Below, piece after piece: positions 18,274 through 55,296 of a stretch of 64,000 bases of DNA. Origin of the DNA: Candidatus Lutacidiplasma silvani (lineage in GTDB: Archaea; Thermoplasmatota; Thermoplasmata; Lutacidiplasmatales; UBA184); assembly GCA_022750295.1 (NCBI GenBank), contig JAKIVZ010000005.1, positions 1 through 64,000 of the forward strand, given 5' to 3'. The notes under the pieces were generated by a model. The model made no database searches. It was given only the letters and a program-made list of their open reading frames with translations, and was not told where the DNA came from. How positions within the stretch are numbered: the first letter of the stretch is position 1; every line of letters starts with the position of its first letter. Position numbers and translations under genes: made by a program.

Positions 18274-18381
18274 TGGGGCTGCCCGAATTTGAATCGGGGT
18301 CCCGGGCTCCCAAAGCCCGAAGGATGGACCAATAGCGCGGCGCGGGGGCCGTCCCCGGCGCCGAAACTACCCCACAGCCCC
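18274..18381 (-). tRNA. tRNA-Pro (anticodon UGG) with 33-nt insertion in the D-loop
   Basis: The acceptor strands GGGGCTG and CAGCCCC pair perfectly, with discriminator A. The anticodon stem CGGGC/GCCCG closes the loop TTTGGGA, giving anticodon TGG. The T-arm CCCGA/TCGGG closes TTCAAAT. The gene is 108 nt because the D-loop, expected to read AGTTTGGTCCA, is split after AGTTT by a 33-nt segment. Without it the tRNA is a normal 75 nt. No CCA is encoded. It lies 42 bp downstream (lower coordinates side: zinc-finger start) and 13 bp from the UPF0179 stop, so it may share a transcript with these genes. Confidence 0.9.
18331..18363 (-). other. Putative non-canonical tRNA intron in D-loop of tRNA-Pro
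   Basis: The 33-nt insertion contains a strong hairpin: CGGCGC pairs with GCGCCG, a C-C mismatch follows, then GGGG pairs with CCCC over a small loop. Around the junctions TAGT can pair with GCTA as a 4-bp central helix flanked by bulges TTC and TTGG, with GGG/TCC outside. This is a relaxed bulge-helix-bulge. The exact ends are ambiguous by one or two T residues. Confidence 0.65.
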
Positions 18382-28353: not shown

Positions 28354-30738
28354 GTGTCCCGCCTACCGTGGCTCATCGGCCTCGCGGTCGTGGTCCTCCT
28401 CACCTCGGGACTCACCGTCCCCGCCCCTGCTCGGGCCGCCCCCGCGGGGTCCGGCTCCCGGTCGGTCGTGGCGGCCGATGCCGCGATCGTCCCCGGAATG
28501 GTCCGAGCCCTCTCCGCCGGTCAGCGGCTCGCGGTGACGGTCTCCCTCGAACCCCGGAACGCGACGGCGCTCTTCCGGTTCGATGCGGCCCTCGCGGGTC
28601 GCGACCCGCCGCCGTTCCTGACCGAGCGCGAGTTCGAGCGACAGTTCTCCCCGGCTTCGTCGAACGTGTCCGCCCTCGAGTCGTACTTCCGCGCCGACGG
28701 GGCGAGCGACTTCTCGGTCACGTCGGACCACCTCGCCGTGCGGTTCACCGTCGCGGCTCCGGGAGCGGAAGCGGCGTTCTCGACCGGCCTCCTGAGTCCG
28801 ACCGGAAGCGTCGGATCGTGGACGTGGACCTCCCCACCGACCCTGCCGTCCTCGCTCGCCCCCATGGTGTTCGGAGTGGGCGGCCTTTCCCGGTCCGCGG
28901 CCACGCCGGACCTTCTGCTGAAGGAGACCCATCTCGCCCCGCGCTCGACGCTCTCGACCTACGTCCTCGACGGGAACGCGAGCGATACGCCGCTCTACAC
29001 GGGGGCCGACTTCGTGCAGGCGTACGGGGAAAACCGGCTCTTCCCGAACGGAAGCGCCTCGGGGGTCAACCACACGTTCGCGACGGGGCAGGCGATCGCG
29101 ACGATCCTCATGAGCGGGTACAACGCCACGACGCAGACGAACCTGCCGCCCTGGGACCCGGAGCAGATTTTCAGTTACTTCAACGACACGTTCCCCGCTG
29201 CCTGGCCCGTCCCCACGTACGCCGGCGTGCCCGTCACCGTCGACAACGAGACCCCGCCGCTCCCCGGATCGTACGGAACCGCGAACGACACCTCGTTCGA
29301 TGAGGCCGAGAATTCCCTCGACATCGAGATGGCGGGGAGCGCGGCGCCCGGGGCGTCGATCGTGAACTTCTACTTCGACGCGAGCCTGTTCCAGAACACG
29401 CCGAGCTCGGCCCCCCTCGGACCGATCGCCGACGACTTCGCCGCGGCCCTGTCGGCCGCCCTCTCGTACAATTACTCCGGGGCCCGCCTCGATGCGGTCA
29501 CGAACTCGTTCGCCCTTCCGGACCTGAACGACTCCGCGTGGAATCTCGAACTCGCGCACGCCGCGGCCACCGGCGTGACTGTCGTCGCGGCGAGCGGCGA
29601 CCAGGGGGACGCCCCCACGTACCTCTCGGGGCGATTCCAGGGACAGTGGCCTGGCTGGCCGGCCACGGCGGCGTTCGAGTCGTACGGGACGATGGCCGTC
29701 GGGGGCGTCTCCGTCTCCGTCGTGGGGAACCCGAGCGGGACGTTCACGAACAACGGCTCGCTGCCCGACCAGTTCGACCCGAACGTGACCGGGCTCGCGG
29801 GCCAGGCCGCCTGGTACGAGAGCGGGGCCGACGGCGCGAACATCTCCGGTTCCGAGGGCGGACTCAGCACGGTGATCCCGGAACCGGCGTGGCAGTTCGA
29901 TTCGGCCGCGCAGCCGTCGATCTCGGTTGCCGGGGGGGAGCAGGCGGCAACGTTCCTCGGGCGCGCCACGCCGGACGTCGCGTTCCCGGCGAACGATACG
30001 ATCGCGTACGTCGCCCAGGCGGGGAACAACACGTACTTCGCGGTCCTGGAGGGGACGAGCATCGCCTCGCCGTTCTTCGCCGGCCTCCTCGCCGAATGGT
30101 CGGCCGAGGCGAACCACTCGTTCGGCTGGCTCGACCCGGCGCTCTACCGGATGGCCGGGTACTACGCGGCGAACGCGGGGGTCGGCAGCCCGTTCCTCGA
30201 CGTCACTTCGGGAGGGAACTACCTCTTCTCGGCCGGTCCCGGCTGGGACGCCACGACCGGGTGGGGGGGGCTCGCGGGGGACGCGTTCCCCGCCGTGTAC
30301 GCGAACAGCACGATCCGGAACTTCGTGTACACGGGTCCGACGCCCGGGCTGCCGCCGCCATTCCTCGCGCTCGCGCCCCCGACGCCCGGGGTCACGTACC
30401 TCCTCATCCTCGCCGGCGTCGCCCTCGCGGTCGCGCTCGTCGTCATCGTCGTGTGGGACGAGCGGTCGCGCCGGGCCCGCACTCCGCCCACGGGCCCGTA
30501 CCAGGCACCGCCCTGGGCGTACGGCTCGCCCCCGCCCGCCCACGTCGGGGGGGCGGCGGCGCCCCCACCGGGAACGTATCCGAACCAATCGCCTCCCCCG
30601 CCCTCGTCGTCGGGGTACGCCCCGGGGGTGGTCACCGGGTGGGCCGCGATCCCGCCGCCCGCGTCGTTCGCCTGTCCGTACTGCGGGGCGATGCGCCCCG
30701 CCGAACCGGTCCGGTGCCCCGGATGTGGGGCGTTTTAG
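28354..30738 (+). CDS. Sedolisin-like (S53) serine-carboxyl protease with anchor and zinc ribbon
   Basis: Sedolisins are secreted, usually acid-active proteases that remove an N-terminal propeptide. The 794-residue protein has a signal peptide (residues 5-27) and a pro-domain (about 40-190). The catalytic Glu319 and Asp323 lie in ENSLDIEMAGSAAPGA, the oxyanion Asp416 in SGDQG, and the nucleophile Ser569 in GTSIASPFF; the E-x3-D spacing is that of the family. After the catalytic domain come a membrane helix (about 690-712), a Pro/Gly/Tyr-rich linker, and a C-terminal double-CxxC zinc ribbon (CPYCG, CPGCG). A leaderless GTG follows the TATA-like GCTTATCTC. Confidence 0.92.
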   Translation: MSRLPWLIGLAVVVLLTSGLTVPAPARAAPAGSGSRSVVAADAAIVPGMVRALSAGQRLAVTVSLEPRNATALFRFDAALAGRDPPPFLTEREFERQFSPASSNVSALESYFRADGASDFSVTSDHLAVRFTVAAPGAEAAFSTGLLSPTGSVGSWTWTSPPTLPSSLAPMVFGVGGLSRSAATPDLLLKETHLAPRSTLSTYVLDGNASDTPLYTGADFVQAYGENRLFPNGSASGVNHTFATGQAIATILMSGYNATTQTNLPPWDPEQIFSYFNDTFPAAWPVPTYAGVPVTVDNETPPLPGSYGTANDTSFDEAENSLDIEMAGSAAPGASIVNFYFDASLFQNTPSSAPLGPIADDFAAALSAALSYNYSGARLDAVTNSFALPDLNDSAWNLELAHAAATGVTVVAASGDQGDAPTYLSGRFQGQWPGWPATAAFESYGTMAVGGVSVSVVGNPSGTFTNNGSLPDQFDPNVTGLAGQAAWYESGADGANISGSEGGLSTVIPEPAWQFDSAAQPSISVAGGEQAATFLGRATPDVAFPANDTIAYVAQAGNNTYFAVLEGTSIASPFFAGLLAEWSAEANHSFGWLDPALYRMAGYYAANAGVGSPFLDVTSGGNYLFSAGPGWDATTGWGGLAGDAFPAVYANSTIRNFVYTGPTPGLPPPFLALAPPTPGVTYLLILAGVALAVALVVIVVWDERSRRARTPPTGPYQAPPWAYGSPPPAHVGGAAAPPPGTYPNQSPPPPSSSGYAPGVVTGWAAIPPPASFACPYCGAMRPAEPVRCPGCGAF

Positions 30739-54318: not shown

Positions 54319-55131
54319 TCAAGTCCCGTACCGGCGTTGCCGGTTCTGGAACGCTTGGATCGCCTTCAGGAAGTCGATCTTCGCGAGGCCCGGCCACAGC
54401 ACGTCGGCGAAGTAGAGCTCCGCGTACGCGGTCTGCCAGAGGAGGAAGTTCGAGATTCGCTCCTCGCCGCTCGTCCGGAACACCAGGTCGGGGTCCGGGA
54501 GGTCGGCGGTGTAGAGACGGCGCGAGACCATCTCCGCGTCGATCTGGTCGGGCTGGACCGACCCTTTCGCGACGTCCTCGGCGATGCGGCGGATCGCGAG
54601 GAGGATCTCCTCCCGGCCTCCGTAGGCGATCGCGATGTTGTACTGGTACTCGCTGTAATTCTTCGTCGCGTCCTCCGCGGCCCGAATCGCTTCCTGGACA
54701 TCCGCCCGCAGGAGCGGGATGTTCCCGATCGCCCGCACCCGGATTCGGTGCTGGTGGACGCGGGGATCGGTCACGACGTCCCGGAACCCGTTCGCGAAGA
54801 GGTCCATCAGCGCCGCGATCTCCTCTTTCGGACGGGAGAGGTTCTCGGTCGAGAGGGCGTAGACGGTCAGGATCCGTACGCCGGCCTCGAGGCACCAGTC
54901 GAGGAGCTGCTCGAGCTTGTCGCGGCCGCTCACGTGCCCCTCCGAGATCATCATCCCGTGGCCCATCGCGAACCTCCGGTTCCCGTCCATGATGATGGCG
55001 AGGTGGCGCGGGACCGGGGCCATCCGGACCCGCTCGAGGAGCTGGCGCTCCTGCGCCTCCTTCAGCGCCCCCGCGACGACCGTCGAGAACGAGCGGGCCG
55101 GCGGCTCCGGGGAGGTTGGAGGGTCGGTCAC
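54319..55131 (-). CDS. uppS: cis-Prenyltransferase (undecaprenyl/dolichyl diphosphate synthase family)
   Basis: This enzyme elongates allylic diphosphates with isopentenyl diphosphate in cis to make the polyprenyl (dolichyl) carrier for glycan assembly. The 270-residue protein has the catalytic HLAIIMDGNRRFA, GRDKLEQLLDWCLEAGVRILTVYALSTENLSRP, and the C-terminal signature DLVFRTSGEERISNFLLWQTAYAELYF split by a few residues. It starts at a GTG. A TATA-like CTAAACCG about 26 bp upstream makes it leaderless. The carrier would serve the glycosyltransferases encoded nearby (inference). Confidence 0.95.
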   Translation of the reverse strand: MTDPPTSPEPPARSFSTVVAGALKEAQERQLLERVRMAPVPRHLAIIMDGNRRFAMGHGMMISEGHVSGRDKLEQLLDWCLEAGVRILTVYALSTENLSRPKEEIAALMDLFANGFRDVVTDPRVHQHRIRVRAIGNIPLLRADVQEAIRAAEDATKNYSEYQYNIAIAYGGREEILLAIRRIAEDVAKGSVQPDQIDAEMVSRRLYTADLPDPDLVFRTSGEERISNFLLWQTAYAELYFADVLWPGLAKIDFLKAIQAFQNRQRRYGT

Positions 55132-55194: not shown

Positions 55195-55296
55195 CGCCCT
55201 GGTCGGGAGTTTCGACGGCCCGCTCGCGCGGACCGCATTCGAACCCGAGTCCCAAGCTCGACAGACTTAGATCCTAGACCGCTAGACTACCAGGGC
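55195..55296 (-). tRNA. tRNA-Asp (anticodon GUC) with T-loop intron
   Basis: Acceptor strands GCCCTGG and CCAGGGC pair perfectly, with discriminator G. The D-arm is GTCT...GGAT. The anticodon arm TAAGT/GCTTG closes CTGTCGA, anticodon GTC. The T-stem TCGGG pairs with CCCGA only when a 29-nt segment inside the T-loop is skipped. The mature T-loop is then TTCGAAT and the tRNA is a regular 73 nt. Without removal the T-arm cannot form. No CCA is encoded. It lies upstream of uppS on the same strand. Confidence 0.92.
55209..55237 (-). other. Non-canonical 29-nt intron in the tRNA-Asp T-loop
   Basis: The boundaries sit in a bulge-helix-bulge. The outer helix is the T-stem TCGGG/CCCGA. The 3' bulge is ACT, the central 4-bp helix TTCG/CGAA, the 5' bulge AAT, and the inner helix GCGGTCC/GGGCCGT. 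Cutting after the second base of each bulge joins ...TTCGAA to T..., restoring a 7-nt T-loop. The insertion point is between nucleotides 59 and 60. Confidence 0.88.

Follow-up and report, generated by a model that had tools for sequence, protein, structure and literature searches.

The minus strand of the window (the whole 64,000-nucleotide stretch of DNA analysed here) carries at 55195..55296 a tRNA-Asp(GUC) gene, which, judging from its sequence, is very probably functional and bears a protein-spliced archaeal intron at position 59/60 in the T-loop. The source lineage is Ca. Lutacidiplasmatales (Thermoplasmatota), an acid-soil archaeon. This interpretation is supported by the structure of the gene, its occurrence as a single copy, its conservation, the covariation of exon and intron bases, the presence and type of the splicing endonuclease, and the RtcB ligase. 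Counted against it are base mismatches at A57 in tRNA genes with introns at the same site and the state of the assembly (2.10 Mb, 29 contigs, 91% complete draft).

Read from 5' to 3', the tRNA-Asp gene (positions 1-73) is GCCCTGG-TA-GTCTAGCGGTCTAGGAT-C-TAAGT-CTGTCGA-GCTTG-GGAC-TCGGG-TTCGAA, TGCGGTCCGCGCGAGCGGGCCGTCGAAAC, T-CCCGA-CCAGGGC-G, where the second element is the intron. Exon 1 (55238..55296) comprises positions 1-59 with a normal D arm and the anticodon arm TAAGT-CTGTCGA-GCTTG (anticodon GUC at 55262-55260). Exon 2 (55195..55208) consists of T60, the T-stem 3' strand CCCGA, the acceptor 3' strand CCAGGGC, which completes the acceptor stem GCCCTGG/CCAGGGC, and G73. The two halves of the T-stem, TCGGG and CCCGA, are parted by TTCGAA, 29 nt and T, with the 29-nt insert (55209..55237) starting after A59. 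Its borders form a strict bulge-helix-bulge (BHB) motif with a 5' bulge AAT (55237..55239), a 4-bp central helix and a 3' bulge ACT (55208..55210). The 5' strand of this helix is the T-loop sequence TTCG (positions 54-57; 55240..55243), which is kept in orthologues, and the 3' strand is CGAA (55211..55214). The intron also contains a 9-bp inner hairpin, GCGGTCCGC-GCGA-GCGGGCCGT (55215..55236). Its removal restores, by sequence, a canonical tRNA with the T-loop TTCGAAT. An earlier note on this DNA had described the 29-nt T-loop intron with these bulges, helix and restored loop, and all of these elements are present at the positions it gave; the strand and the inner hairpin were absent from it.

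In the precursor, the T-loop TTCG would pair with CGAA near the 3' end of the intron, between the two 3-nt bulges, with the T-stem serving as the outer helix and the 9-bp intron hairpin as the inner helix. An alpha'2-type endonuclease would then cut in both bulges, and RtcB would join the exons to give the mature T-loop. The BHB rule places each cut after the second bulge base, that is at 59/60. Splicing at 60/61 would yield the same mature sequence, but this holds for this gene alone, and we consider the later site very unlikely: it departs from the BHB rule, and some tRNA-Asp orthologues have G, C or A as the first intron base. Since cutting further on would alter base 60 in those orthologues, 59/60 is favoured as the cut site.

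The genome contains one splicing endonuclease gene, on contig C10, with two PF01974 domains, and PF01974 matches were found in 36 of 41 relatives, nearly all with two per frame. Among solved structures, the best match was the EndA-like two-repeat protein 5x89, followed by EndA of M. jannaschii and A. fulgidus, and the second (catalytic) repeat aligns with A. fulgidus EndA across the region of the catalytic Tyr/His/Lys. The crenarchaeal specificity loop was not found in this protein, which at the site of that loop aligns without a gap with wild-type A. fulgidus EndA (GSRIGERLELSL / GSEKGDLVTLSL), whereas the loop-grafted variant 3p1y has extra residues. Two separate subunit genes, as in (alpha-beta)2 enzymes, were not found either, with one gene only in the genome. 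The protein is therefore predicted to be an alpha'2-type endonuclease with two repeats in one chain, and such an enzyme without a specificity loop fits the strict BHB of the tRNA-Asp intron. The earlier note had expected an endonuclease capable of cutting non-canonical introns, with the broad-specificity enzymes of Thermoproteales in mind; the endonuclease gene is indeed present and its product is probably able to cut the non-canonical introns of this genome, but it is not of the (alpha-beta)2 broad-specificity type. The homodimeric EndA of Ferroplasma, another Thermoplasmata archaeon, cleaves minimal BHB RNAs (PMC8707768), and according to reviews relaxed motifs are poorly handled by alpha'2 enzymes (PMC6379350, PMC12397907). 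An RtcB ligase is also encoded (E 4e-170). Retention of the insert, giving an unspliced tRNA-Asp with a permanently extended T-arm, would be compatible with a conserved hairpin alone. We find this very unlikely, because the locus retains the TTCGAA and T60 found in every tRNA, although positions 54-57, once paired, would be unavailable for the elbow. In addition, the elements are spaced 3 nt / 4 bp / 3 nt as expected of a BHB, and both EndA and RtcB are encoded.

tRNA-Asp was found by DNA search in 55 of the 61 genomes of the order. We parsed 33 orthologous sequences (30 from DNA searches and three from named records, some of them from the same genomes), among which there are 29 different introns, 27-34 nt in length, but just 11 different exon pairs. 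All four pairs of the central helix are present in 28 of these 29 introns, and the inner hairpin exceeds dinucleotide shuffles in stability (mean z -2.6; 26/29 below -1). Most helix pairs within groups of equal-length introns occur as two to four standard types. Thus, the intron sequence drifts and the structure stays, and its retention across 33 orthologous sequences (29 distinct introns) argues against a chance structure. With near-invariant exons, hypervariable introns, and a hairpin and 4-bp helix that are kept, the insert is a maintained intron rather than the mark of a pseudogene.

Standard finders handle this locus poorly. ARAGORN calls the tRNA-Asp misfolded and places its 3' end within the intron, the Rfam model RF00005 scores it at 18.3 bits, below the cut-off, and an RF00005 scan of the window gave nothing above the cut-off. 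This denial of an intact-tRNA score is what a tRNA-Asp broken by random insertion, with the real gene elsewhere, would lead one to expect, but that reading is hardly credible, as the genome search for a second intact copy, which the earlier note had linked to a pseudogene, found one tRNA-Asp only, and in the relatives the same insert is accompanied by unchanged exons and preserved base pairing.

A co-directional gene 64 bases downstream of tRNA-Asp (54319..55131, minus strand) appears from its sequence to encode a uppS-like cis-prenyltransferase. A protein search with this gene identified the relatives AcS13-54, AcS1-3 and AcS5-58 at 81-86% identity, each with a tRNA-Asp containing a T-loop intron beside the uppS-like gene. 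These three are listed as Ca. Lutacidiplasmatales by Sheridan et al. 2022 (PMC9287336), in the main text of which the word "intron" is absent.

The tRNA genes of the genome were collected using the Rfam model, our own scanner allowing one or two introns, and R1, a covariance model of T-loop-intron tRNAs. All 46 expected elongator and initiator tRNAs are present with one gene each (three with CAU), together with one odd class II tRNA. This 47th gene (contig C3, 12100-12184) has a long variable arm, A73 and the apparent anticodon GAA, and a normal tRNA-Phe(GAA) is also present. In total, 21 of the 47 genes carry 23 introns: 14 in the T-loop, five in the D-loop and four in the anticodon loop. Hence 19 of the 23 lie outside the anticodon loop, and site 59/60 alone holds 14. 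The T-loop introns occur in Asn(GUU), Asp(GUC), Arg(UCU), Arg(UCG), Gln(CUG), Glu(CUC), Ala(GGC), Gly(UCC), His(GUG), Ser(GCU), Ser(GGA), Ser(CGA), Lys(UUU) and Leu(UAG), the last two of which also have a D-loop intron (the double-intron Lys gene is at C16:215806-215942). A D-loop intron alone was found in a CAU tRNA, Arg(GCG) and Pro(UGG), and anticodon-loop introns in Tyr, a CAU tRNA, Leu(UAA) and Trp. The suggestion that this lineage carries non-canonical introns is borne out by the T-loop and D-loop sets, and the search for further T-loop introns proposed in the earlier note revealed 13 other tRNA genes with an intron at the same site.

Most T-loop-intron genes score below or near the Rfam cut-off. 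Within the window, the tRNA-Pro(UGG) gene on the minus strand (18274..18381) contains a 33-nt D-loop intron (about 18331-18363) bordered by a BHB with the central helix TAGT/GCTA and bulges TTC and TTG; it had been overlooked by ARAGORN and by the earlier note. A tRNA-Ser with an intron called by ARAGORN at 29644-29835 was judged spurious. The tRNA-Trp gene (C5:166110-166272) has an intron of about 90 nt; long tRNA-Trp introns of archaea are known to contain a box C/D guide RNA. The assembly breaks within the T-loop of tRNA-Ser(CGA), where the end of contig C8 and the start of C15 share a 55-base identical overlap and could be joined.

The T-loop introns share one design. In each of them the universal T-loop sequence TTCR serves as the 5' side of the central helix, and the intron ends with a matching NGRN followed by two bulge bases. 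Across 51 parsed T-loop-intron genes, C stands opposite G57 in 23 of 26 cases and opposite A57 in none of 25 (Fisher p about 1e-11, for sequences that are not independent), revealing exon-intron covariation across isotypes. Opposite A57, the family of this genome has G in 18 cases and T in seven, that is mostly an A.G mismatch beside the 5' bulge, whereas other families have A-U pairs. In this genome itself the A57 tRNAs show A.G or, for instance in Glu(CUC), A.A at this place, so several sister introns are slightly relaxed. Because TTCRAA is near-identical in all tRNAs, the design fits any isotype, which would explain the 14 carriers. Shielding of tRNA genes from integrases is another conceivable cause. 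Comparison of the 14 introns by eye, with no statistic, revealed no evident copies between different tRNAs of the kind associated with Thermoproteales-type intron mobility, and introns evolve too fast to keep traces of copying.

Introns at this site were found elsewhere in the Thermoplasmata. In all 12 genus relatives, the top hits were T-loop-intron genes where parsed. For six further genera in the family, and for one additional genome of the genus, 6-12 hits per genome had the length of a T-loop-intron gene, and all 28 loci parsed from them are such genes. Hit counts alone were not taken as proof, since R1 also matches intron-free tRNAs, and long listed hits were parsed where their DNA was available. 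Beyond the host family, T-loop introns were parsed in ten sampled families of the same class (f2, f3, f4, f5, f9, f11, f13, f14, f16 and f18), usually with at least one to five per genome among the matches listed, and with some less clear folds in f11 and f14; the matches listed for f8, f15 and f17 included none. Thus, most of the other sampled families of Thermoplasmata contain T-loop introns, in smaller numbers. The pairing of a D-loop with a T-loop intron in tRNA-Lys(UUU) is met again in distant families of the class, being found in f1, f2, f3, f5 and f18, which suggests an old origin of this double intron. An f3 genome from another family of the order (G014; loci L088, L209 and L210) has 14-nt T-loop introns without an inner helix and a second intron in the same genes. 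A pattern census of T-loop introns in 295 genomes of the phylum was discarded, as intron-free tRNA ends match the pattern too and AT-rich genomes give equal numbers of control hits.

On balance, we favour the view that the T-loop of Thermoplasmata is an old and recurrent intron home. With TTCRAA providing the splice motif's 5' half, any tRNA could take up a short hairpin ending in YGAAAC, and an alpha'2 endonuclease lacking the loop would tolerate A.G at 57 and remove 14 such introns per cell. If true, the published link of broad-specificity enzymes to non-canonical introns would break. The genome itself places many non-canonical introns in a euryarchaeal lineage with an alpha'2-type enzyme, where reviews expect few introns, at 37/38 only. 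One enzyme with about 20 natural substrates also makes it possible to test the supposed co-evolution of endonuclease type and intron position. In practice, genomes of this kind will probably seem to lack tRNAs, because the tools used missed or misdrew these genes.

Position 59/60 is a listed archaeal insertion site, mainly in Crenarchaeota and Nanoarchaeota, and reviews credit the Euryarchaeota that possess alpha4 or alpha2 enzymes with intron ratios below 10% (about 8%), at canonical positions only (PMC4090602), and describe these enzymes as cutting canonical BHB motifs only (PMC4033280). Curated non-canonical introns from Crenarchaeota and Euryarchaeota were used in tRNAscan-SE 2.0, and the present set may be partly catalogued already. 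Our literature search, which covered openly accessible articles, brought up no account of T-loop introns from Thermoplasmatota.

The system described here resembles that of Thermoproteales and other Crenarchaeota (PMC4090602, PMC4033280) in the 59/60 site, the BHB, the presence of several introns in some genes and the large share of tRNAs affected. In contrast to the crenarchaeal (alpha-beta)2 enzymes, however, its endonuclease, from a member of the Thermoplasmatota, appears to be of the alpha'2 type without the specificity loop, and a single site holds 14 of the 23 introns. With the euryarchaeal 37/38 system (PMC4090602, PMC6379350) it shares the strict BHB and the predicted alpha'2-type enzyme, but here nearly half of the tRNA genes (21/47) have introns, most of them (19/23) elsewhere. 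Like the ARMAN epsilon2 system (PMC6379350, PMC12397907), it represents an acidophile with non-canonical tRNA introns outside Crenarchaeota; the enzyme of ARMAN consists of three units and has a specific loop, whereas the present one has two repeats and, at the position examined, no insertion of that kind. Thus, the single tRNA-Asp gene is of a known kind, and what would surprise a specialist is the set of 14 in this lineage with this type of enzyme: the motif, site and pathway are known, whereas the lineage, the scale and the putative enzyme type are new.
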